Assembly: GCF_029953285.1 (NCBI RefSeq)
Contig: NZ_JASAOI010000010.1
Coordinates: 186,001-250,000, forward strand
Length of the DNA: 64,000 bases
From: Yinghuangia seranimata
Lineage (GTDB): Bacteria; Actinomycetota; Actinomycetes; Streptomycetales; Streptomycetaceae
Direction of reading: 5' to 3'
Within the stretch, counting starts at the first letter, position 1; each line of letters begins with the position of its first letter. Below the pieces are notes generated by a model that saw only the letters and a program-made list of their open reading frames with translations, ran no database searches and was not told the origin of the DNA. Below are positions 19,939-32,043 of this stretch, piece after piece. A program made the position numbers and the translations under genes.

Positions 19939-22900
19939 ATGCGGCCCCTGCACAAGGACGATCCACGCCAGATCGGCGGCCACCGCCTCGTCGCGGTGCT
20001 CGGCGAGGGCTCGGTCAGCCAGGTCTTCCTCGGTGCGACGCCCGCCGGCCGGCCGATCGTACTCAAGGCCGTGCGGCCGCTGCCCGCCGCCGACCCGAAC
20101 TTCCGCGCGCGCTTCGCGCAGGAGGTCACCGCGGCGCGCAAGCTGGCCTGCCCATACGCCGTCCCCGTCGTCGACGCCGACACCGACGGTCCGGTGGCGT
20201 GGATCGCCACCGCGTACATGCCGGGCCCCCCGCTGGGCGAGGCCGTCGAGGCGTACGGTCCGCTCCCGCCGCAGACCGTCCAGGTCCTGGCCGCGGGACT
20301 GGCCGACGCGCTCGACGCCATGCACACCGTCGGGCTCACCCACGGACGCCTCGCCCCGAACCAGGTCGCGCTGGCGCCCGACGGACCGCGCGTGGTCGAC
20401 CTCGGCGTCGCCCGCTCCCCCGACGGGCCCGCCGTCACCGAGACCGGGCTCATCATCGGATCGGTGCTGCCGGCACCGGCGTTCCGCGCCCCCGAACAAC
20501 TGGACGGCGGCGTCGCCGGGCCCGCGGCCGACGTGTTCTCGCTCGGCTGCGTCCTGGTGCACGCGGCGACCGGGCGCGGCCCGTTCGGCAACGACGACAC
20601 CCCGGGCGTCCGCGAACGCGTCGTGCGGGGCACCCCCGACCTCGACGGCCTGCCGTCGTGGCTGCGCGAGTTGGCGGCCGCCTGCCTCGACAAGGACCCC
20701 GACCGACGCCCGACCGCCGACCGCGTCCACGCCGCTACGACCGGCGGCCTCGACGGACCCGGCTGGCTGCCCAGGCCTCTCGCGGCCGAAGTCGCCCAGC
20801 GGGCGGCGACGTTGTGGTCGTACGTCTCGATGCAGACCGACGACGAGGGCGTCCCGACCGGCAACGCCACCCCGTTCGCGGCCCCACCGACCTCGGGCGC
20901 GGCCGAGGCCCGGCAGGGCCCCGGTGTCGGTCCGACGAGCCAAGGTGCCGGAACGGCCGCAGGGTTCGCCGACATGCCGGACGCGGGAACGGGCCCGGGC
21001 GCGCGTGCAGGCATGCCGACGAGCACACCCCCGACGGCCGGACGCCCCGCCACACCGCCGCCTCCACCAGGACCGCCCCCGAGCCCAGGCACCCGCGCCC
21101 GGACGAACAGCGCGTCGGTACCCAGCCCGGCACCACCGGTCGACGGACGACCTGTCGTACCACCGGCCCCGCCGACGCCGCCCCCGGTCCCCGGCGGAGC
21201 GGCAGCGGGCAACCCCTCGACGCCGAACCGCCCGACGACGCCGCCACCGCCGGCCGCCGGCGCGGGAGCACACGCGCAAGCGGCGGCGAACACGAACCGT
21301 CCACCGGCCCCGCCGATGCCCCCGACCCCGCCGCCTCCGGTCGGCCCACAGGGAGCGACGGGACCAGCCGCGCCCCCGAACCCCGCAGTGAGTCCAGCTA
21401 CCCCGGCGGCACGCCCGACCGCCCCGCCGCCGCCCCCGCCCGGCCCGCCACCGGTCGTCACAGACGCGGCTCCCGCCGGCCGACCGACCGGCGCGGGCGG
21501 AGCCGCAGGCGTCTCCTCACCTACCGGACCGGCGAGCACGCCCATCCCCCAGCCGAGTTCCGCCGCGCCTGCGGGAACTCCTGCGGCAACGCCGCCGCGT
21601 CCCGACGCACAGCCGCCCAACGCGCCGACCCGCACCCCGGCGACGCCGCCCCGGCCCGGCACGGCGGGGCGTTCGGGCGCACCCCCGGCCGGCAGACCGA
21701 CGAGTCCGGCCGAGAACACCGCACCGCTGCCCGCCCCTTCCGACGCCGCCGCAGACGCCGCGTCAACCGGAACCCCGTCCGCCGGACAGGCGGGTCGATC
21801 GACCTCACGGCCGGCTTCCGCGTCGGGCTCTGGCGCTCACCCGAGTTCCGGCACAGCCCCCGCGTCGGCATCGGGCCCCGCGAACCCGGGCGCGAACGCG
21901 GCGGACAGCGCGTCGCCGCCGGCACCGCGCGGAGGCCTGCCCACCGGATCCGCACCCGCGTCGCGCACGCATGCGCCCGATCACGCCGCAGCGCCGCACG
22001 CTCCGGGCCAGGAGCCCCCGGACTCGCGCACCGCGACCACGCCGCCTGCGGCCCCTGTGTCGCGATTCGGCGCTCCAACGAGTTCGAGCACCGACACCGC
22101 GCCTGCCTCGGGACCCGCGAACCCGGCCGCGGACACCGCAGCGAGCGCGACATCCTCCGCACAGCACTCAGGACCCCTTACCAGATCCGCGACCACGCCG
22201 CCCGCGGCTCACACGTCGACTCCTGGCGCTCCGTCGAGTTCAGCCCCAGATGCCACGCGGTCCGGCGGCCCGCGCGACGCGGTGCCACACGCACCGTCTA
22301 CCGACACGCCCTCTTCGGCGGCATCCCGAGGTCGACGCTCGGGCGACGCTCCGCCTGGCGCGACTTCGTCCGGCGAGGTGCTACCTCCCCGTTCGGTCAC
22401 ACCGCCGGGCGACAGCCGTGGTCGAGCGCAAACCGCCGCAAGTGCGCCGCCTGCGTCCACGCCGTCTGCGGGTTCTGCCTCCGTGTCGTCCAGCGCCTCG
22501 TCCTCGTCGAGAGCCTCGCAGGCAGGTCCCGTCGACGACGCGGGCGGTCCGGGGCGTAGGCGTGCTGGTCGGCACTCCGGTCAGCCAGGCACGCCTTCGG
22601 CCCCCGACACCGGCCGGAACGCCGACACCACGGTCCAGCCCGGCGGGACCACTCAGCCCGTCGTGACGCCGCCGTCCCCTGGTTCCCCCGCCTCGTCGCC
22701 CACGGCGGGCCCGGCCGCCGAGGCGGCGGTCGGCGGCGCGTCTGAGTCCGTCGTACCGCCGTCGTCTGCCGGGCCGTCGGATGCGGCCTCCTCGGCCGCC
22801 CCGTCCGGCGGACGGCGACGTGCCCGGTCGGGGGCCGGTTCGTCCGACAGCGCCACACCGGACGGCACAGCGAACTCGATTCCCCACCCCGCGACTTCGC

Positions 22901-24753
22901 CGGAGGACGACGCCCCCACCGGCAGGCGTCGGGCCGGCGCCTCGTCGGGCGAACAGAACGTCGGACGCCCGGCGAGCCCGCCGGATTCCCCCACGTCGCT
23001 CGGCGGCGGTTCGGATCCCGGTGCCGCGGGCTCGCGTGGTTGGGGCAAGGGTCGGCGACGACGTACAGACCACAGCTCCACTGCTTCGTTCGGGGGCGCG
23101 GCGGAGGCGTTCCCGGGCGACGGCTCCGGCGGCGTGGGCGGCACGGGCGGCATCGGCGGCGCCAACGGGTCGTGGCACGACGACCCGCTCGACGACGAGA
23201 TCATCGAGGCCGAACTCGTCGATGACGACGAGCCGTTGCCGCCCCGCGCGGCCGCCGGTCCCGCCGAGGGCCCGTCGGGCCATCGGCGTCCGGGCCGGGC
23301 AGGAGGCGGCGCTTCGGCTCCCCCACCGGGCGGACGTCGTGCGTCCACGCCGCCCCCGTCGGAACCCCGGCACGCGGCGAAGCCGGAGCAACCGGAGGAA
23401 CCCTCGGGCACTCCCCCGGTCGTGAACCGGCGCCGGTTCCTGACCTGGGCGGCCGGCGGGGCCGCGGTGATCGCGGGTGCTTCGACGGGGGCGATCCTGT
23501 GGGGCGGTGGCGACGGCGGTACGTCCGTGCGCGCCGATCCCGCGGGGGCGCCGCCGACGTACTTCCCGCCCGCGCCTCCGGTGGCTCCGCTGCGCCTGTC
23601 GCTGATGGACTCGTCGCTGCCGAACGACCAACTGGCCGCCCTGCAAAGCGATTTGCAGCAGAGCGGCGGGCGCGTCCGGCTCGACGTGGAGTCGCTCCCG
23701 GCGGCCGGCTACGCCGAGGGCCTGCTCGGCCGACTACGCGGTCCGCAGCCGCCGGACGTGTTCGAGGTCGACCTGCTGTCCCTGGCCGGGCATTTCGCGG
23801 CGGGGCGGATCGCCGACATGACCGCGTTCCAGGGCCGGTTCGACACGGACGCGTGGCTGCCCGCACTGCGTTCGGCGGCGCGGGTCGGGGACAAGCTCGT
23901 GGCGCTGCCGATGACGGCGTCGGTCCCGGTGGTGCTGTACCACGTCGGCCTGTACGCGGCGGCGGGTGTCGCGGTGCCGCGTACCCGCGAGGAGTGGGTG
24001 GACGGCCTGGAGCGGCTGCGGGTCGCGAACGCCGCGAACCCGGCGTTCCGCAGCCTGTACCTGCCGGGCAAGGCGTGGCCGGTTCTGTCGTCGTTCATGT
24101 GGGAGGCGGGCGGTGCGCTCGCACTGCGTGAAGGGGACACCTGGCGGGGCGCGTTCGATCTGCCCGGCTCGATCGAAGGGGTGCGGTTCTTCCGGGAGTT
24201 GCAGAGCTACGCTCCCGAGGCTCGGGATCTGACGGAGGGCGATTTCCTGCCGGGCGACTGGTTCCGGAGCGGGGCGACGGGGTCGATGATCGGCAGTGCC
24301 GCGCTGCACACGGCGGCGATGTCGTCCGTTCCGTCGCTGGAGGGCACGCTGGGCGCGTTCCCGATGCCGGGGCCGCTGCCGGACAAGCCGGGCGCGGTGG
24401 GGGTGCGCGGGACGGCGCTCGTGGTGTCGTCGAACTGCCATGACCTGCACGGCGCGGCGGAGGTGCTCGCGGCGCTGGCGTCGGATCCCTGGCGGGCGAA
24501 GGTGGCGGCGCTGGGGCGCGTGAACTCGCCTCGGACGGTCCCCGAGTCGGCGGTGCCAGGGCAGAACCCGATGCTCCGGGCGGGTGCGGTGGCGGCGGCG
24601 CAGAACGGCCACGCGTACCCGGTCGCGCCGGGCTGGTCGGAGCGGCCGGTGGTGGACTTCGGGCACGCGGTGCTGACCGGCGGGGACGCGCTGGTCGCCG
24701 CGGCCGCGGCGAACCAGGTCGTGGCGGCGGAGTTCGGGAAGGCGTCGGCCTAG
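19939..24753 (+). CDS. Predicted pseudokinase receptor with solute-binding domain
   Basis: A 1604-aa membrane protein. Residues about 10-275 have a Ser/Thr kinase fold: glycine loop LGEGSVSQVF (21-30), Lys43 and DLG Asp154 are present. The catalytic loop, however, reads HGRLAPNQ (135-142) where an active kinase has HRDLKPSN, so the catalytic Asp, the following Lys and the metal-binding Asn are all changed. Residues about 310-1160 are a low-complexity Pro/Ala/Ser/Thr linker. RRRFL at 1164-1168 begins a hydrophobic segment that fits a Tat-type signal-anchor. Residues about 1205-1604 form a family-1 solute-binding-like domain, predicted outside the cell. GGAG precedes the ATG. No permease genes are adjacent, so it is probably a sensor or scaffold. 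Confidence 0.85.
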   Translation: MRPLHKDDPRQIGGHRLVAVLGEGSVSQVFLGATPAGRPIVLKAVRPLPAADPNFRARFAQEVTAARKLACPYAVPVVDADTDGPVAWIATAYMPGPPLGEAVEAYGPLPPQTVQVLAAGLADALDAMHTVGLTHGRLAPNQVALAPDGPRVVDLGVARSPDGPAVTETGLIIGSVLPAPAFRAPEQLDGGVAGPAADVFSLGCVLVHAATGRGPFGNDDTPGVRERVVRGTPDLDGLPSWLRELAAACLDKDPDRRPTADRVHAATTGGLDGPGWLPRPLAAEVAQRAATLWSYVSMQTDDEGVPTGNATPFAAPPTSGAAEARQGPGVGPTSQGAGTAAGFADMPDAGTGPGARAGMPTSTPPTAGRPATPPPPPGPPPSPGTRARTNSASVPSPAPPVDGRPVVPPAPPTPPPVPGGAAAGNPSTPNRPTTPPPPAAGAGAHAQAAANTNRPPAPPMPPTPPPPVGPQGATGPAAPPNPAVSPATPAARPTAPPPPPPGPPPVVTDAAPAGRPTGAGGAAGVSSPTGPASTPIPQPSSAAPAGTPAATPPRPDAQPPNAPTRTPATPPRPGTAGRSGAPPAGRPTSPAENTAPLPAPSDAAADAASTGTPSAGQAGRSTSRPASASGSGAHPSSGTAPASASGPANPGANAADSASPPAPRGGLPTGSAPASRTHAPDHAAAPHAPGQEPPDSRTATTPPAAPVSRFGAPTSSSTDTAPASGPANPAADTAASATSSAQHSGPLTRSATTPPAAHTSTPGAPSSSAPDATRSGGPRDAVPHAPSTDTPSSAASRGRRSGDAPPGATSSGEVLPPRSVTPPGDSRGRAQTAASAPPASTPSAGSASVSSSASSSSRASQAGPVDDAGGPGRRRAGRHSGQPGTPSAPDTGRNADTTVQPGGTTQPVVTPPSPGSPASSPTAGPAAEAAVGGASESVVPPSSAGPSDAASSAAPSGGRRRARSGAGSSDSATPDGTANSIPHPATSPEDDAPTGRRRAGASSGEQNVGRPASPPDSPTSLGGGSDPGAAGSRGWGKGRRRRTDHSSTASFGGAAEAFPGDGSGGVGGTGGIGGANGSWHDDPLDDEIIEAELVDDDEPLPPRAAAGPAEGPSGHRRPGRAGGGASAPPPGGRRASTPPPSEPRHAAKPEQPEEPSGTPPVVNRRRFLTWAAGGAAVIAGASTGAILWGGGDGGTSVRADPAGAPPTYFPPAPPVAPLRLSLMDSSLPNDQLAALQSDLQQSGGRVRLDVESLPAAGYAEGLLGRLRGPQPPDVFEVDLLSLAGHFAAGRIADMTAFQGRFDTDAWLPALRSAARVGDKLVALPMTASVPVVLYHVGLYAAAGVAVPRTREEWVDGLERLRVANAANPAFRSLYLPGKAWPVLSSFMWEAGGALALREGDTWRGAFDLPGSIEGVRFFRELQSYAPEARDLTEGDFLPGDWFRSGATGSMIGSAALHTAAMSSVPSLEGTLGAFPMPGPLPDKPGAVGVRGTALVVSSNCHDLHGAAEVLAALASDPWRAKVAALGRVNSPRTVPESAVPGQNPMLRAGAVAAAQNGHAYPVAPGWSERPVVDFGHAVLTGGDALVAAAAANQVVAAEFGKASA

Positions 24754-25024
24754 CGGGCGGCGCGGGCGTGCGGGCCGCTTCTCCGTCGGCCCGTACGCCG
24801 ACCCCGTGGCCGGAACTCGCCGCCGCCGCACCCCAGCCGAGCCCGACACCGGCAACCGACCCACGTTACGCCGCCCGGGGCCGGGTCGTCTCCTATCCCT
24901 GGGAAACGGGGGTTACCGCCCGTATCGCCACCCTACGGTCGAGGTGCTTCGTCGCTTCGTCCTCGACCGGCACCCGTGCGCTTTGGGCCGGTCACGCTCC
25001 GAGTCCACGAGGGTGCGGTACGCC

Positions 25025-25054
25025 ATGCTCACGCTGTTCGAGTGCACCATATGA
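25025..25054 (+). CDS. Possible 9-codon leader peptide before the flavohemoglobin
   Basis: The frame ATG-CTC-ACG-CTG-TTC-GAG-TGC-ACC-ATA-TGA encodes MLTLFECTI. Its stop overlaps the ATG of the flavohemoglobin-like gene (ATGA). That gene has only a poor ribosome binding site of its own, so translational coupling through this leader is plausible. GAGGG lies about 11 bp upstream. Very short, so chance is possible. Confidence 0.35.
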   Translation: MLTLFECTI

Positions 25055-26706
25055 GTGCTTTGGCTCCACAGGATCCTTCTGGGCCACGGGGGTTGGCCCC
25101 GGTGCCGGCGCACGGTGGCGCGGTGTCCGGGTACGCCGTACCGCGTCTGCCCTTGCTGTCTCCGCCGCTGGGCGCCTCCGTGCCGGAGCCCGCCGGTGAC
25201 CCCGTCCGCGCGGACGACAGCGCCGGAGCCGCGGGCCCGGCCGGAGCCCTCGACGTCGCCCCCGTGTGCGCAGCCGCCGCGTCCCCGACCCCCGACGGGT
25301 TCGGTGCTCCGCGCTGGGAGGTGTCCGACGGCAGCTTCACCGGTCCGGGCTTCCAGCCTGTGCCGGGCTCGGATCCGGACCTCCCGGCCGGCCCTGACGG
25401 GGCCACCGGCGCCTCGTACGGCTCCTCATACGGCTCCTCGTACACACCCCCGCCCACCGGCTCGTACACAACCGCGGACCCCGACCCGTCCCTGCCCCCG
25501 CCCCCGCCCCCGCCCCCGCCCCAGGACACGCTCCCCCCGCGGCCGGCCGCGCCGGTGGATCCGCTGGGTCCGCGGCTGATCCAGGAGAGCCTGGCGGTCG
25601 TCGCGCCGCGCGCGGACGCCGTGTTGTCGCACTTCTACGCGCTGCTGTTCATCGAGCGCCCGGATCTGCGGTCGATGTTCCCGCCGATGATGGACGCGCA
25701 GCGTGACCGACTGCTGGCCGCCCTGCTGCGGCTGGGGGCAAGCGCGGGCGATCCCGAATCGCAGCGGGGCTTCCTGCGCCAGCTGGGCCGGGACCACCGC
25801 AAGTACGGCGTGCTCGCCGAGCACTACGCGGCCGTCGGTGTCGCGCTGATCGGCGCGCTGGCGCGCTTCTCGCGCGACCGCTGGAACGAGGCGACGCAGG
25901 AGGCGTGGCTGGGCCTCTACTCCTGGGCGTCCCGGGTCATGATCGAGGCGGCGGAGGAGGACGCGATGGTGTCGCCGCCGTGGTGGGACGCGCGGATCAT
26001 CGTCCACGAGCGGCGCGGCCCGGACATCGCGATCCTGACCGTCGCGCCGGACCGGCCGCTGCCGTACCGGCCCGGTCAGCACGTGACCGTCGAGACGCCG
26101 TGGTGGCCGCGGGTGTGGCGGCACTACTCGATCGCCAACGCGCCGCGCCCCGACAACCTCCTCGAGCTGCACGTGCGCGCGGTCCCGGCGGGGTGGGTCA
26201 GCCAGGCGTTGGTGCACCGGGCCCGGGTCGGGGACCATCTGCGGCTCGGCCCGGCGCGCGGGGCGCTCGTCATGCGCGGGGAGTCGCTGCGCCGGGCGCT
26301 GTGCGTCGCGGGCGGCACGGGGCTGGCACCGATCAAGGCGCTGGTGGAGCACATGGCGCAACGTCAGCTCGCGCATGATGCGCATGTGTTCATCGGGGCG
26401 CGGCGTACCTCGGAGCTGTACGACCTGCGGGCGCTGAGTCAGATGGCGGAGATGTACTCGTGGCTGCACGTCGTCCCGGCGGTGTCGGAGGACCTGTCGT
26501 TCTCGGGTGCCCGGGGCACGCTGCCGGACGTTCTGGCGCGCTACGGCGACTGGCGCGACCACGACGTGTACATCAGCGGCTCGTCGGCGATGGTCAGCGC
26601 GACACGGCTGCGGCTCACCGGGGAGCTGGGCGTGGAGCCCGGCCGACTGCTGACCGAGAGCCTGGACGCGGTGTCCCAGGGCGACCGTCTGCTGGAGGCG
26701 CGCTAG
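25051..26706 (+). CDS. Flavohemoglobin-like globin reductase with long N-terminal extension
   Basis: A 551-aa protein. Residues 1-165 are an unusual disordered extension rich in Pro, Gly and Ser, ending in a run of ten prolines. Residues about 170-310 are a globin: a B-helix Tyr in HFYALLF, QRDRL in the E-helix region and a proximal His249 in RDHRKYGV. An FAD domain follows (RHYSIAN), then an NAD(P)H domain (GGTGLAP, YISGSSAM). This is the flavohemoglobin layout, used for nitric oxide dioxygenation; the extension is not part of standard enzymes. The start is uncertain because the binding site is weak. It lies between the pseudokinase and the molybdoenzyme, all on one strand. Confidence 0.85.
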   Translation: MSALAPQDPSGPRGLAPVPAHGGAVSGYAVPRLPLLSPPLGASVPEPAGDPVRADDSAGAAGPAGALDVAPVCAAAASPTPDGFGAPRWEVSDGSFTGPGFQPVPGSDPDLPAGPDGATGASYGSSYGSSYTPPPTGSYTTADPDPSLPPPPPPPPPQDTLPPRPAAPVDPLGPRLIQESLAVVAPRADAVLSHFYALLFIERPDLRSMFPPMMDAQRDRLLAALLRLGASAGDPESQRGFLRQLGRDHRKYGVLAEHYAAVGVALIGALARFSRDRWNEATQEAWLGLYSWASRVMIEAAEEDAMVSPPWWDARIIVHERRGPDIAILTVAPDRPLPYRPGQHVTVETPWWPRVWRHYSIANAPRPDNLLELHVRAVPAGWVSQALVHRARVGDHLRLGPARGALVMRGESLRRALCVAGGTGLAPIKALVEHMAQRQLAHDAHVFIGARRTSELYDLRALSQMAEMYSWLHVVPAVSEDLSFSGARGTLPDVLARYGDWRDHDVYISGSSAMVSATRLRLTGELGVEPGRLLTESLDAVSQGDRLLEAR

Positions 26707-26775
26707 GGAATACGGTGGGGGGTGCGGCGGCCCGCGGGGGCCCCGTGTACCTGGGCACCGAGAGGCGGCGGAGAG

Positions 26776-29070
26776 ATGGTCGGCAAGGCACCGGTCGGAG
26801 ATGTCGACGACAGCGGTATGCGGGTGTCGGCGCCGAAACGGTACGCCGCAGGGGTCCCGGCCATCATGTCGACGCTGAAGCACGCGGGCCGTGAGATGGG
26901 GGTCCGCCGGACCGCCCTCACGCTGCTGAAGGTGAACCAGAAGGACGGCTTCGACTGCCCCGGCTGCGCGTGGCCCGAGGGCGACCACCGGAGCCCGATC
27001 GGCGAGTACTGCGAGAACGGGGCCAAGGCGGTCGCCGAGGAGGCGACGCTGCGGCGCGTGACGCCGGAGTTCTTCGCCGCGCACTCCGTGGAGGACCTCG
27101 CGGGGCGGACGGACTTCTGGCTCGGGCAGCAGGGCCGGCTGACGCATCCCATGTACCTGGCGGAGGGCGCGTCGCACTACGCGCCGGTCGGGTGGGACGA
27201 GGCGTTCGGGATCGTCGCTGAGGAGCTGGCGAAGCTCGGCTCGCCGGACGAGGCGGCGTTCTACACGTCGGGCCGGACGAGCAACGAGGCCGCGTTCGCG
27301 TACCAGTTGTTCGTGCGGGCGTTCGGGACGAACAACCTGCCGGACTGCTCGAACATGTGCCACGAGTCGTCGGGTTCGGCGCTGTCGGAGACGATCGGCG
27401 TCGGCAAGGGCAGCGTGTCGCTGGAGGACCTGCACAAGGCCGACCTGATCCTGGTCGTCGGGCAGAACCCGGGCACGAACCACCCCCGGATGCTGAGCGC
27501 CCTGGAGAAGGCGAAGCGCGCGGGCGCGCACATCGTCGCGGTGAACCCGCTGCCTGAGGCCGGCCTGCTCCGCTTCAAGAACCCGCAGAAGCCGAACGGC
27601 CTGGTGGGCGGCGGCACTTCGCTCACGGACGAGTTCGCGCAGATCCGGCTGAACGGCGACCTCGCGCTGTTCCGGGCCCTGAACCGCATGCTCCTCGAGG
27701 CCGAGGACGCCGCGCCGGGCACCGTGCTGGACCGCGCGTTCATCGACGAACACTCGCACGGTTTCGAGGAGTTCGCGGACGACGTCCGCAAGACCGACTG
27801 GGCGGACGTGCTGGAGGCCACCGGCCTGCCGCGCACCCAGATCGAGCGGATCCACGAACGCGTGCTGCGGTCCGAGCGCGTGGTGGTGTGCTGGGCGATG
27901 GGCCTGACGCAGCACCGCAACTCGGTGCCGACGATCCGCGAGGTCGTGAACTTCCTGCTGCTGCGCGGCAACATCGGCCGCGAGGGTGCGGGCGTGTGCC
28001 CGGTGCGCGGGCACAGCAACGTGCAGGGCGACCGCACGATGGGCATCTACGAGAAGCCGTCGGCGGCGTTCCTGGACGCGCTGGAGGCGGAGTTCGGGTT
28101 CGCGCCGCCGCGCGAGCACGGGCACGACGTGGTCGACGCGATCCGGGCCATGCGCGACGGCAAGGTCAAGGTGTTCCTCGCGGTCGGCGGCAACTTCGTG
28201 GGCGCGACGCCCGACACGGCGGCCACCGAGGCGGCGCTGCGGAACACGGCGCTGACCGTGCAGGTCTCGACGAAGCTGAACCGGTCGCACGCGGTGACCG
28301 GGCGCCGGGCGCTGATCCTGCCGACGCTGGGCCGCACCGAGGCCGACGTACAGGCGTCGGGGCCGCAGTTCGTGACGGTCGAGGACTCGATGAGCGCGGT
28401 GCACGCGTCGACGGGACGGCTCGAGCCGGCGTCCCGCGAGCTGCGCTCCGAGGTGGCGATCGTGTGCGGGATCGCGGAGAAGGTGCTCGGCGACCGCGTC
28501 GCGGTGCCGTGGGCGGCGTTCCGGGACGACTACGACGTGATCCGGGACCGCATCGAGCGGGTCGTGCCGGGCTTCACCGACTTCAACCGGCGGGTGCGGG
28601 TGCCGGGCGGGTTCGTACTGCCGCACGGGCCGCGCGACGAGCGCCGGTTCCCGACGGCGACCGGCAAGGCCAACTTCACCGTGAACGCGCTAGAGGTGCT
28701 GCGGGTCCCGGCCGGGCGGCTGATCCTGCAGACGGTACGCTCCCACGACCAGTACAACACCACGATCTACGGGCTCGACGACCGCTACCGCGGCATCAAG
28801 GCCGGCCGCCGCGTGGTGTTCGTGAACCCGGCCGACCTCGCGCAGCTCGGCTTCGCGGACGGCCAGATGGTCGACCTCGTCAGCGAGTGGGCGGACGGGG
28901 AGCGGCGCGCGCCCGGGTTCCGGGTCGTGGCGTACCCGACGGCGGAGGGCTGCTGCGCGGCGTACTTCCCGGAGACCAACGTGCTGGTCCCGCTCGACAG
29001 CACGGCCGAGGTCAGCAACACGCCGACGTCGAAGTCCGTGGTGGTCCGGCTGGTGGCCGCGGAGGCGTAG
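26776..29070 (+). CDS. FdhF/YdeP-family molybdopterin oxidoreductase
   Basis: A 764-aa enzyme of the YdeP branch of formate-dehydrogenase-like proteins. A short Cys pair (CPGCAWPEGD, about 56-65) lies at the N-terminus. The molybdopterin fold follows, with GRTSNEAAF, the active-site region NMCHESSGSALSETIGVGKG, the cofactor contact GQNPGTNHPRM and later HRNSVPTIREVVNFLLLRGNIGREGAGVCPVRGHSNVQGDRT. The C-terminal molydop-binding domain begins near RSHDQYNTTIYG. GGAGAG precedes the ATG. No electron-transfer subunit is adjacent, and the substrate is unknown (YdeP has been tied to acid resistance in E. coli). Probably co-transcribed with the flavohemoglobin. Confidence 0.92.
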   Translation: MVGKAPVGDVDDSGMRVSAPKRYAAGVPAIMSTLKHAGREMGVRRTALTLLKVNQKDGFDCPGCAWPEGDHRSPIGEYCENGAKAVAEEATLRRVTPEFFAAHSVEDLAGRTDFWLGQQGRLTHPMYLAEGASHYAPVGWDEAFGIVAEELAKLGSPDEAAFYTSGRTSNEAAFAYQLFVRAFGTNNLPDCSNMCHESSGSALSETIGVGKGSVSLEDLHKADLILVVGQNPGTNHPRMLSALEKAKRAGAHIVAVNPLPEAGLLRFKNPQKPNGLVGGGTSLTDEFAQIRLNGDLALFRALNRMLLEAEDAAPGTVLDRAFIDEHSHGFEEFADDVRKTDWADVLEATGLPRTQIERIHERVLRSERVVVCWAMGLTQHRNSVPTIREVVNFLLLRGNIGREGAGVCPVRGHSNVQGDRTMGIYEKPSAAFLDALEAEFGFAPPREHGHDVVDAIRAMRDGKVKVFLAVGGNFVGATPDTAATEAALRNTALTVQVSTKLNRSHAVTGRRALILPTLGRTEADVQASGPQFVTVEDSMSAVHASTGRLEPASRELRSEVAIVCGIAEKVLGDRVAVPWAAFRDDYDVIRDRIERVVPGFTDFNRRVRVPGGFVLPHGPRDERRFPTATGKANFTVNALEVLRVPAGRLILQTVRSHDQYNTTIYGLDDRYRGIKAGRRVVFVNPADLAQLGFADGQMVDLVSEWADGERRAPGFRVVAYPTAEGCCAAYFPETNVLVPLDSTAEVSNTPTSKSVVVRLVAAEA

Positions 29071-29184: not shown

Positions 29185-32043
29185 ATGCAGCCGTTGGAGG
29201 CGTCGGATCCGGAGCGGATCGGGTCCTACCGGCTGACCGGCCGGCTCGGCGCGGGCGGAATGGGCCTGGTGTACCAGGGGCGGTCACCGAGCGGCCGGAT
29301 GGTCGCGATCAAGGTCGTGCGCCCTGACCTGGCCGGCGACGAGGAGTTCCGGGTCCGGTTCGCGCGCGAGGTCGCCGCGGCGCGCCGGGTCGGCGGGTTC
29401 TACACCGCGCCGGTGGTGGACGCGGACACCGACGGGCCGCTGCCGTGGCTGGCCACGGCGTATCTGCCGGGGCCGAGCCTGCAGGCCGCCGTACGCGACC
29501 ACGGGCCGCTGCCCGAGCCGTCGCTGCGCGTGCTCACGGCCGGGCTGGCCGAGGGGCTGCAGTCGATCCACGCGACGGGGCTCGTGCACCGGGATCTGAA
29601 GCCGTCCAACGTTCTGCTCGCACTGGACGGGCCGCGCGTCATCGACTTCGGCATCGCCCGCGCGGCCGACGAGACGAGCGTGACCGCGACGGGACTCGTG
29701 GTGGGATCGCCCGGGTTCCTGTCGCCGGAGCAGGCCAACGACCACGAGGTGGGGCCGCCGTCCGACGTGTTCTCGCTGGCGTCGGTGGTGGTCTTCGCCG
29801 CGACGGGCGCGGGCCCGTTCGGCGGCGGCTCGGTGCCGGGGCTGCTGTTCCGCGTGGTGCACAACCCGCCGTCGCTGGACGGCGTACCGGAAGGCCTGCG
29901 GGACCTGCTGTCCCGCTGCCTCGCGAAGGACCCGGCGGCCCGGCCCAGGGCCGGACAGGTGCTGGCGGAGGCCCTGGCCCCGGGCGACGCGACGGCGGTA
30001 CGCGGCCCGCGCGGCTGGCTCCCGGAGCCCGTCGCGGCGGCGGTGGCCGCGGCGACGGCGGAGTGGGGCTACGGGGAGCCGGGACGCGCGGCCGACGCGG
30101 CTTCGGTGTCGGCCTCGGGGCTGGCTTCGGGGCCGGCTTCGGGGCCGGCTGCTCGGCCGGCTGCTCGGCCGGCGGACGCGGGGGCACCGTCGGTGCCGTC
30201 CTCGCAGCCGTCGTCCGGCCCGGCGGACGCGGTGCCGGTGTCAGGCCCGGCCGACGCGGCGCCCGGTTCGGGCCAGCCCGACGCGGTCCCGTCGATCCCG
30301 GGGCCGCCCACGCTCCCGCCCCCGCCGTCGGTGTTCGACAGCGCGCCGCACTCGCCCGTGCCCACGCCGCCCCCGTCCCCTGCGCCGTACCTGCCGACGA
30401 TGCCGCGGCACCCCGCGGGGCCTCCCCCGATGCCCGCGAGCCCGCCCGTGCAGGGCACGCCTCCCGCGCAGCAGGGCCCGCCTCCCGCGGCGGTGTGGCA
30501 ACCGCCGACGCCGGGCCCGCAGCCGGGCATCCCGCAACCGCCCAGCTCGCAGCCGCCGAACGTGGGGCAACCGCACGCCCCGCAGCCCGGATTCCCGCCG
30601 CCCGGTATCCCGGGCCCGCCCGTACCCGAGCCCCGACCCGGGGTGTCGCGGCGCCGGTTCATCGCCATCGGATCGGCCGCGGCGACGGTCGCGGCCGGCG
30701 GCGGGATCGCGGCGTGGCTGCTCGGGCGCTCCGACGGCGGTGACGGGGCCAAGAACTCCTCCTCCGAGAAGATCAGCTCACCGAACCCGCCCGGACCGAC
30801 GACCAACCCGCCGCCGGTCGCACCCGCGCCCAAGCCTTCCGGCCCGTACACGCTCACCTGGCTGACCGAGTCGTTCGGCGACCCGTCGGACACGGACGTC
30901 AAGTCGGCCATGGACGGGCTCAACTCGGACGTGGGCAAGCTGTCGCCGTCGGGCAAGCTCACGTACACGCTGTCCCCGTTCGACCAACTCGAGGCCAAGC
31001 GCACGAATATGCTGGCCGCAGGGGCCGCCCTGGACCTGTTCGACGTCCAGGCCTCGCAGCTGGCGCAGTTCGCCGAGGCCGGGCAGCTCGCGGACCTGAC
31101 GCCGTACCAGGAGCTGTTCCACGTCGACTCGTGGATCCCCGGGCTGCGCGACGCATGCACGTACAACGGCAAGTTGGTGGCCGTGCCGATCGGGAACTCG
31201 ATCCCGGTCGTCGTCTACCGCAAGGACCTGTGCGACCCGGCCGGGTTCACCGTGCCGAAGACGCAGGACGACTGGCTCGCCGGCCTGGAGAAGGTGCGCG
31301 CGAAGAACACCGGAACGCCGGGATTCCAGGCGATCCTGTTGCCGGGTCAGGCGTGGCAGGTCATCTCGTCGTGCGTGTGGGCGGCGGGCGGCCAGATCGC
31401 CGAGCGGGTCGGCGGCAGGTGGAAGGGCCAGCTGGACACCCCCGAGGCCCTGACGGGGATCCGGTTCTTCCAGAAGCTGCAGGGCTATTCGACCGCGCTG
31501 AAGACCGACACCGACTACATGGTGAACAACCCGCCGAACCAGATCCTCGCCAAGCAGGCGACGGGCATGGCGGTCGCGTCCGACTGGCTCTACGACACGG
31601 TGGTGTCGGACGACCCCACCATGGCCGCCAAGCTCGGCGCGTTCCCGCTGCCGGGGCCGCAGGCGGGCATTCCCGCGCCGGTCGGCTCGACCGGGACGCT
31701 GCTGTGCGTCTCGGCGAAGAGCCAGAGCGTCGCGGGTGCGGCGCAGTTGCTGGCGTTGGCGCTCGCCGACCGGTTCCAGGCGTCGTGGGGGAAGGCCGCG
31801 GGCCTGCTCCCGGCGCGCAAGGGCCTGCCCTCGGACCGCTCGGCGAAGAACCCCATGGTGAAGGCGGGGATGGAGGTCGCCGACCTGGCGACCCGCGCGT
31901 ACCCGACCGCGTCGGGCTGGACGGTCCAGCCCCTGCGCACGTTCGCGACGAACGTGCTCCAGGGGATGGACCCGGCCACGGCGGCGGCCCAGGCCAACGC
32001 GCTGATCGACCAGAAGTTCAACGAGTCGAAGCCGAGTACGTGA
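29185..32043 (+). CDS. Ser/Thr receptor kinase with Tat-type anchor and solute-binding domain
   Basis: A 952-aa paralogue of the pseudokinase at 19939. Its kinase domain (about 10-275) is complete: glycine loop LGAGGMGLVY, Lys43, HRDLKPSN (135-142), DFG at 154-156 and GSPGFLSPEQ as the activation segment end. Residues about 285-485 are a Pro-rich linker. SRRRFI (R489-R491) opens a hydrophobic segment fitting a Tat signal-anchor. Residues about 540-952 are a family-1 solute-binding-like domain, similar along its length to that of the pseudokinase (for example LPGQAWQVISS against LPGKAWPVLSS). GGGGAGG precedes the ATG. It likely senses an extracellular ligand and phosphorylates cytoplasmic targets, perhaps including its neighbour. 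Confidence 0.9.
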   Translation: MQPLEASDPERIGSYRLTGRLGAGGMGLVYQGRSPSGRMVAIKVVRPDLAGDEEFRVRFAREVAAARRVGGFYTAPVVDADTDGPLPWLATAYLPGPSLQAAVRDHGPLPEPSLRVLTAGLAEGLQSIHATGLVHRDLKPSNVLLALDGPRVIDFGIARAADETSVTATGLVVGSPGFLSPEQANDHEVGPPSDVFSLASVVVFAATGAGPFGGGSVPGLLFRVVHNPPSLDGVPEGLRDLLSRCLAKDPAARPRAGQVLAEALAPGDATAVRGPRGWLPEPVAAAVAAATAEWGYGEPGRAADAASVSASGLASGPASGPAARPAARPADAGAPSVPSSQPSSGPADAVPVSGPADAAPGSGQPDAVPSIPGPPTLPPPPSVFDSAPHSPVPTPPPSPAPYLPTMPRHPAGPPPMPASPPVQGTPPAQQGPPPAAVWQPPTPGPQPGIPQPPSSQPPNVGQPHAPQPGFPPPGIPGPPVPEPRPGVSRRRFIAIGSAAATVAAGGGIAAWLLGRSDGGDGAKNSSSEKISSPNPPGPTTNPPPVAPAPKPSGPYTLTWLTESFGDPSDTDVKSAMDGLNSDVGKLSPSGKLTYTLSPFDQLEAKRTNMLAAGAALDLFDVQASQLAQFAEAGQLADLTPYQELFHVDSWIPGLRDACTYNGKLVAVPIGNSIPVVVYRKDLCDPAGFTVPKTQDDWLAGLEKVRAKNTGTPGFQAILLPGQAWQVISSCVWAAGGQIAERVGGRWKGQLDTPEALTGIRFFQKLQGYSTALKTDTDYMVNNPPNQILAKQATGMAVASDWLYDTVVSDDPTMAAKLGAFPLPGPQAGIPAPVGSTGTLLCVSAKSQSVAGAAQLLALALADRFQASWGKAAGLLPARKGLPSDRSAKNPMVKAGMEVADLATRAYPTASGWTVQPLRTFATNVLQGMDPATAAAQANALIDQKFNESKPST

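Follow-up and report, generated by a model that had tools for sequence, protein, structure and literature searches.

A candidate non-catalytic receptor kinase with an external sugar-type solute-binding domain in Yinghuangia and Embleya

What does a protein kinase fold do in a receptor when the residues of its catalytic loop have been replaced? The question is raised by P0001, a gene on the forward strand of a 64,000-nucleotide stretch of the Yinghuangia seranimata genome (contig NZ_JASAOI010000010.1, positions 186,001 to 250,000; hereafter the window), whose product joins an N-terminal kinase-like domain to a long disordered linker, an internal twin-arginine (RR) anchor and a C-terminal solute-binding protein (SBP) domain. 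A sequence-only reading had described this gene as a giant pseudokinase with an external solute-binding domain, in a layout not known to have been described. On balance, we lean towards P0001 being a single-pass, non-catalytic, ligand-gated receptor that acts by protein contact. In such a receptor the external C-terminal domain, a sugar-type SBP, would bind a small solute, and the weakly hydrophobic RR anchor and long flexible linker would join it to the cytoplasmic kinase fold. This fold would no longer phosphorylate and would instead serve as a ligand-gated protein-protein module, possibly as a scaffold or as a dimer partner that acts allosterically on a different Ser/Thr kinase.

Architecture of the gene

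P0001 is a single unbroken open reading frame of 1604 residues plus stop in the translation of the window, and a frameshift or mis-assembly as its origin is ruled out by the intact frame and by orthologues in other genomes. A paralogue of the same layout, P2, which the sequence-only reading did not mention, lies 4.4 kb downstream (kinase domains 50% and SBP domains 38% identical). The parts of P0001 are as follows:

19939-24753, + strand: pseudokinase-linker-anchor-SBP receptor gene P0001 (translation; orthologues)
19939-20772, + strand: pseudokinase domain, residues 1-278 (PF00069; Foldseek match to PknB 3f69)
20065-20067, + strand: beta3 Lys43 (Lys in 3/3 Yinghuangia, Arg in 3/3 Embleya)
20341-20364, + strand: degenerate catalytic loop HGRLAPNQ, residues 135-142 (Asp, Lys and Asn lost)
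20398-20400, + strand: DLG Asp154 (Asp in 3/3 Yinghuangia, Gly or His in 3/3 Embleya)
20461-20472, + strand: activation segment, four residues more than in P2 (6/6 pseudokinases; insertion site alignment-dependent)
20773-23418, + strand: disordered Pro/Ala/Ser/Gly/Thr-rich linker (composition)
23197-23250, + strand: acidic block EIIEAELVDDDEPLPPRA in the linker (comparison of six orthologue linkers)
23419-23517, + strand: internal anchor NRRRFLTWAAGGAAVIAGASTGAILWGG with twin arginine, RRRFL at 23428-23442 (motif and hydropathy)
23518-24750, + strand: solute-binding domain, sugar-SBP fold (homology to P2, model, Foldseek and profile search)

A kinase fold that has lost catalytic-loop residues

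The N-terminal domain has the fold of a Hanks-type Ser/Thr kinase: PF00069 matches residues 19-263 with an E-value of 1.9e-23, and a structural model (predicted local distance difference test, pLDDT, 65.9; predicted template modelling score, pTM, 0.72) finds PknB 3f69 as its best Foldseek match at E 1.9e-15, the top matches being PknB and PknA. By sequence, the domain is of the PknB/AfsK type. P0001 scored 184 of 1300 bits against the AfsK equivalog NF053615 (model positions 2-395 of 809), below the curated cut-off, and 117 of 450 bits against the PASTA kinase model PknB/Stk1 NF033483, with no match to PASTA repeats in the Pfam scan.

In the kinase alignment the catalytic loop reads HGRLAPNQ against HRDxKxxN, with the HRD Asp replaced by Arg, the loop Lys by Ala and the Asn by Gln, a loss that the sequence-only reading had already pointed out. 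The HRD Asp and the following Asn, taken here as the mark of an active Hanks-type kinase, are missing from P0001 and from 5/5 orthologues. Beta3 Lys43 (VLK), the alphaC Glu and Asp154 (VDLG) are all retained in P0001, and its glycine loop has Ser in place of the third Gly. The genome contains 68 PF00069 matches, of which four under 200 residues were left out of the alignment; four of the 64 aligned rows, P0001 counted, lack at least one of the beta3 Lys, HRD Asp, Asn and DFG Asp. The other three are the kinase-like proteins L116, L118 and L120.

Orthologues and selection on the kinase domain

Kinase-SBP fusions were read in six genomes, namely that of the window, two further Yinghuangia (G001 and G002) and three Embleya (G005, G020 and G030), with Y. 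soli, E. hyalina and E. scabrispora among the carriers. A query with the SBP part matched 27 of 61 genomes (own counted) at E<=1e-30. In a family-wide draw 67/297 genomes matched at E<=1e-45, and among the best five candidates scored per genome frames of at least 859 residues occurred only in the same six. The 60 matching genomes outside Yinghuangia and Embleya gave frames of 418-615 residues with 29-35% identity; the 615-residue frame of G231 and a match within the genus Embleya, G061, were not read. A class-wide search with the anchor and SBP of P2 matched 7/394 genomes and, among the best four candidates per genome, returned no frame above 571 residues outside the own genome.

The six orthologous kinase domains form one clade in the kinase tree (support 99/95), in which P2 had no resolved placement as sister of this clade. 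All six carry HGR in place of HRD, so that the HRD Asp and the Asn are gone in every gene of both genera, and in all six the glycine loop has Ser or Ala where its third Gly would stand. The activation segment measures 33 residues in each, compared with 29 in P2; among the other 63 aligned kinases of the own genome (P2 counted), 34 have a 29-residue segment and four have one of at least 33. In all three Embleya orthologues the beta3 Lys is changed to Arg (VVVR) and the DFG Asp to Gly or His, and the statement in the sequence-only reading that the ATP-site Lys and the DLG Asp are kept therefore holds for P0001 and all Yinghuangia but not for Embleya. As the retained Lys43 and Asp154 are lineage-specific, they are not the conserved property, and from these residues ATP binding is probably not what the pseudokinases have in common. 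The aligned sequences place the catalytic loss as inherited: it arose in the common line of the two genera and went further in Embleya.

The degenerate domain is under purifying selection. Ratios of nonsynonymous to synonymous substitution (dN/dS) for kinase/SBP were 0.34/0.51, 0.40/0.44 and 0.29/0.50 in the three within-genus pairs of Yinghuangia and 0.28/0.27, 0.27/0.26 and 0.12/0.16 in those of Embleya. The kinase value thus lies below that of the SBP in 4/6 pairs and about equals it in 2/6, and all values are far under 1. The cross-genus pair of P0001 and E. hyalina gave 0.47/0.75, at high dS. Separately, two contigs of E. hyalina G030, C57 and C58 (L008 and L031), hold receptor-gene matches with identical coordinates and scores, a doubling that is probably an assembly or terminal-repeat duplication.

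The solute-binding domain and the linker

The C-terminal 411 residues of P0001 were modelled as a complete sugar-type SBP (pLDDT 81.5, pTM 0.81). The best PDB match in Foldseek was 7c63, a beta-glycoside-binding protein (E 1e-22, TM 0.76), and CbpB and GacH stood within the first 50 matches. A nine-row profile (A4), four rows of which are standalone SBPs, matched PDB 7c6z at E 5.4e-37, and the paralogous domain in P2, to which the identity of 38% given above refers, is itself an SBP_bac_1/8 domain. Judged by model and profile, the C-terminal domain is a sugar-type SBP fold (SBP_bac_1/8), and the full solute-binding-like domain first proposed from the sequence is borne out by P2 homology, the model and Foldseek; the class of ligand suggested is that of a sugar-type SBP. 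The domain is probably located outside the membrane, the C-out topology being predicted from the anchor class together with the SBP fold.

Fusion with an intact exported SBP gene that brought its own signal was considered as an origin and rejected, since lipoprotein-type signals with a Cys were seen at all 15 N-termini inspected among standalone SBP relatives. Because standalone SBPs carry signals of this type, the RR anchor is more likely, on sequence grounds, to have derived from the receptor-kinase side.

Between kinase and anchor, the linker of P0001 spans 882 residues by the domain boundaries set in the present analysis, with Pro, Ala, Ser, Gly and Thr making up 75% of residues 301-1160, compared with the roughly 850 disordered residues first noticed. 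Orthologous linkers measure 485 and 341 residues in the other Yinghuangia and 99-103 in Embleya; the size that was called giant comes from linker expansion only (99 to 882 residues across orthologues). A tandem-repeat origin of the entire linker was rejected, as only two short arrays are present. Within Yinghuangia linkers that otherwise align poorly, an acidic block is conserved: EAELVDDD(E/A)PLPPRA, part of EIIEAELVDDDEPLPPRA, occurs in 3/3 Yinghuangia and 0/3 Embleya and lies about 77 residues before the RR in P0001. A looser form of the motif was found in none of the other kinase frames of the 68-member set of the own genome. The block is a possible docking motif, and we take it to recall the C-terminal tails of DnaK.

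The twin-arginine anchor and the anchors of the kinome

The anchor of P0001 reads NRRRFLT, with RRRFL starting at residue 1164, and its best 17-residue hydropathy is 1.56. It has both the SRRxFLK-like motif and the weakly hydrophobic segment of a substrate of twin-arginine translocation (Tat), by the consensus in the available part of PMC7317946. The RR-x-FL Tat-type anchor of the sequence-only reading is thus present, and RR is kept in 10/10 fusion or anchored SBP proteins inspected: seven in alignment A2, the rows of which were trimmed at the last RRxF(L/I), present in each, and three second genes of Embleya judged by eye. A TatC gene is present in the genome. In the available part of PMC5449189 (Tooke et al. 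2017), internal Tat segments are linked to low hydrophobicity and a far-side positive charge; the anchor of P0001 has the low hydrophobicity, and its far-side charge is weak (one Arg), being clearer in Embleya.

The RR anchor is not special to P0001 and is a class feature of the kinome of its genome, as seen in a survey of all 68 PF00069 regions (L056-L123), some with incomplete frames. Among the 49 single-pass kinases with whole frames, RR-x-hydrophobic anchors precede 13/18 C-terminal parts of at least 300 residues compared with 10/31 smaller ones (p=0.009), and large-tail anchors are less hydrophobic (1.93 vs 2.56, p=4e-5) and richer in Gly (0.20 vs 0.07, p=3e-5); the stricter motif [STN]RRxhh, counted over 54 anchored kinases, is found in 11/19 large-tail and 2/35 small-tail anchors (p=4e-5), all these p-values being descriptive, since the kinases are related and the 300-residue cut and the motif were chosen after the list was viewed. 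RR anchors carry 14/19 of the large C-terminal parts, comprising eight PQQ propellers, two WD40 propellers, a Peripla_BP_6 domain, a trypsin-PDZ pair and two sugar-type receptors; the domain scan covered all 14 of these and 3 of 11 smaller RR-anchored parts, with the domain of P0001 assigned by other means. The trypsin-PDZ pair belongs to an RR-anchored kinase at L062:2788-3873 (-), whose C-terminal trypsin-like and PDZ domains are DegP/HtrA-like. Counter-examples are the 5/19 large parts without an RR anchor, including L089 (SBP_bac_5) and L086 (ricin-type lectin). In G010, a genome of the same family with 24 usable kinases among the 30 fetched of 44, RR anchors precede 2/3 large and 0/21 small tails (p=0.011); hydrophobicity differs (p=0.03) and Gly content does not (p=0.08), the direction being as in the own kinome and the numbers thin.

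These features suggest that the sensor of P0001 is probably exported by Tat. We tentatively extend the proposal, at rather less than an even chance, to the receptor kinases of Streptomycetaceae with a large folded sensor (propeller, protease-PDZ or SBP), which may be exported by Tat after folding through an internal RR anchor behind a cytoplasmic kinase, with P0001 as a branch whose kinase has turned into a purely non-catalytic, ligand-gated interaction module.

Gene neighbourhood and the paralogue P2

Three genes lie downstream of P0001 in the window, and the Embleya loci hold a further relative:

24976-26706, + strand: globin with FAD/NAD reductase, flavohaemoprotein-like, start codon uncertain (domain matches)
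26722-29070, + strand: FdhF/YdeP-family molybdopterin oxidoreductase (TIGR01701, E 3.8e-296; synteny)
29185-32043, + strand: paralogue P2, 952 residues, kinase with intact HRDLKPSN, linker, SRRRFI anchor and SBP (translation, Pfam, alignment)
L035:8172-10100, L036:9234-11366 and L037:7395-9656: Embleya kinase-less RR-anchored SBP genes, neighbours of the pseudokinase gene

Both genera show, with local losses, a recognisable order of Sco1979-family regulator, acyl-CoA dehydrogenases, pseudokinase, globin-reductase gene and FdhF-type oxidoreductase, as compared over the fetched stretches, that of Y. soli ending before the regulator. The FdhF-type gene is linked to the pseudokinase in 6/6 genomes. 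The globin-reductase gene follows the pseudokinase in 2/3 Yinghuangia, being absent from G001, where the locus is without both acyl-CoA dehydrogenases and globin. In 3/3 Embleya a second RR-anchored SBP gene, whose product starts with a disordered tail and lacks a kinase domain, lies between pseudokinase and globin, and it is this gene that the globin-reductase gene follows (3/3). The globin-reductase and FdhF/YdeP-type genes adjoin in the window (24976-29070), in Y. soli and in Embleya. At the thresholds used, FdhF homologues occur in 53/61 genomes and globin homologues in 51/61; in the 13 genomes outside both genera that have the two on one contig they lie more than 160 kb apart, and in the remaining genomes that have both they stand on separate contigs, which in draft assemblies may lie at any distance. 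That redox genes stay linked to the pseudokinase hints at a shared physiological setting.

P2 is absent between the FdhF-type gene and the next gene at loci L033 and L034, and in 5/6 genomes no second kinase-bearing gene was found among the SBP-family matches at E<=1e-30. In those five the pseudokinase thus persists without a kinase-bearing sister from this family. In the SBP tree the kinase-less second SBP of Embleya groups with the SBP of P2 (support 85/81, with a long-branch warning).

Relation to known systems

Fusion of a kinase to an SBP has been in print since 2005, when S. coelicolor gi|21223285 was given as a kinase with an extracellular solute-binding protein (Krupa and Srinivasan 2005, PMC1262709; this and the other papers cited in this section, the review PMC12599244 included, are drawn on from the parts available). 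That protein resembles P0001 in joining a Ser/Thr kinase to a bacterial extracellular solute-binding domain, but its SBP is of the Glu/Gln type and it is listed among kinases, whereas P0001 has a sugar-type SBP and lacks catalytic residues. Two more kinase-SBP fusions, L090 (Peripla_BP_6) and L089 (SBP_bac_5), are encoded in the own genome besides P2. The layout as such is therefore less exceptional than the sequence-only reading took it to be, and what stands is its pseudokinase version: no receptor pseudokinase with an external solute-binding domain was found in the open-licence literature, judged mostly by titles and abstract openings.

Three actinobacterial pseudokinase families, ActPs1, ActPs2 and ActPs3, have been described (PMC12599244); ActPs2 and ActPs3 have C-terminal transmembrane regions and many ActPs1 carry a PQQ domain. 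In ActPs2 the beta3 Lys is changed to Arg, the HRD Asp to Asn and the DFG mostly deleted, with insertions of 32 and 250 residues in about 90%. P0001 does not fit this family: its alignment is without such insertions, the HRD Asp is Arg in 6/6 and beta3 Arg occurs only in 3/3 Embleya. Nor does it fit ActPs3, which has an activation-loop deletion, whereas the P0001-type segment is four residues longer than in P2. The ActPs1 feature that was compared occurs in 3/3 Embleya and in none of the three Yinghuangia, which neither places P0001 in that family nor sets it apart. The word solute is absent from this review. The nearest functional precedent seen is MviN of M. tuberculosis, whose non-ATP-binding kinase fold is phosphorylated by PknB and recruits FhaA (PMC12599244); like P0001 as read here, it has a non-catalytic kinase fold, but it is another membrane protein with an activation-loop deletion and no SBP fold mentioned in the part available, unlike the longer segment and SBP of P0001.

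SBPs that drive Ser/Thr kinases are already known (PMC6069109, PMC9602780). In GlnH-GlnX-PknG a solute-binding protein is proposed to relay a nutrient signal to a Ser/Thr kinase (PMC6069109), through separate proteins and an active kinase, where P0001 has a single polypeptide and a dead kinase. As to the anchor, actinobacterial Rieske and other dual Sec-Tat proteins have an internal weakly hydrophobic RR segment followed by a folded domain (PMC5449189, PMC7317946); in those proteins it comes after Sec-inserted helices, in P0001 after a cytoplasmic kinase fold and disordered linker. The word kinase gave no hits in PMC5449189 and PMC7317946 and one in PMC10924467, for an unrelated neighbouring gene, and the open-licence literature, again judged mostly by titles and abstract openings, yielded no kinase anchored by an internal Tat signal.

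Weighing the alternatives

A non-catalytic, ligand-gated receptor is favoured by the loss of the HRD Asp and the Asn in 6/6 orthologous genes, the gene linkage kept in two genera, the constraint on the kinase domain, the SBP fold, the absence of a second kinase-bearing gene of the SBP family in 5/6 genomes, the RR in 10/10 relatives, the presence of TatC and the neighbouring Embleya paralogue, which has anchor and SBP yet no kinase domain. Several points weigh on the other side. Confidence in the kinase model is only moderate (pLDDT 65.9) and the SBP of P0001, unlike that of P2, has by itself no Pfam match at E<=0.01. The dN/dS values come from a simple NG86 calculation, with dS of 0.3-0.8 in most pairs; the pairs depend on one another, and two of those within Embleya show a kinase domain preserved no better than the SBP. 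Other kinases that could serve as partner are encoded in the five genomes that lack an active sister, and K43 and D154, retained in Yinghuangia, make residual ATP binding or weak activity possible there. An atypical active enzyme, in which K43 and D154 bind ATP and other residues catalyse, or in which another nucleotide-transfer reaction takes place, has in its favour that K43, D154 and the alphaC Glu are retained in P0001 and both other Yinghuangia. This is improbable: the three Embleya orthologues lack K and D, yet remain under constraint (dN/dS of 0.12-0.28 for the kinase), the third glycine is Ser or Ala in 6/6, and since Arg stands at the HRD Asp in all six there is no shared replacement acid. 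Somewhat better placed, if still unlikely, is an obligate heterodimer in which P0001, as its dead half, would switch on or hold back the active P2, a protein with the same sensor family and kind of anchor. The same layout 4.4 kb apart and the identities between the paralogues speak for it, and the grouping of the P2 SBP with the kinase-less Embleya SBP (85/81, long-branch warning) suggests an old tandem pair; against it, P2 is absent from the syntenic place at L033 and L034 and the second Embleya copy is without a kinase. Because 5/6 genomes are without an active fused partner, a dedicated P0001-P2 pair is possible in the own strain and not general. That P0001 is a decaying paralogue heading to a pseudogene is very improbable; the stepwise loss of catalytic residues, greater in Embleya, and the two Embleya pairs without extra constraint on the kinase would agree with decay, but it is disfavoured by frames intact in six genomes and by purifying selection (dN/dS of the kinase domain 0.12-0.40 across the six within-genus pairs).

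For the anchor, the competing explanation is an ordinary Sec stop-transfer helix, whose RR would merely follow the positive-inside rule in a high-GC genome, and it has a substantial chance, only a little short of even. RR also precedes 10/31 anchors of small-tail single-pass kinases, 5/19 large-tail kinases (L089 with its SBP_bac_5 among them) do without it, the far-side charge in P0001 is weak, and Tat and Sec signals overlap, as the available part of PMC7317946 describes. It accounts less well for the enrichment of [STN]RRxhh in large-tail anchors (11/19 vs 2/35, p=4e-5, with motif and cut-off post hoc), for their lower hydrophobicity and higher Gly content, for RR in 10/10 family members inspected and for the lipoprotein-type signals of the 15 standalone SBP relatives.

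Implications

Receptor pseudokinases include HER3. If the reading of P0001 as a non-catalytic, ligand-gated receptor is right, Yinghuangia and Embleya would hold a bacterial counterpart of such receptors, in which an external sensor is joined to a kinase fold that does not phosphorylate and whose output would pass to a partner protein. The further losses in Embleya, together with the kinase-less neighbouring receptor, make the role of an enzyme-free receptor testable. Should anchors of this class prove to depend on Tat, the range of internal Tat signals would come to include signalling receptors.

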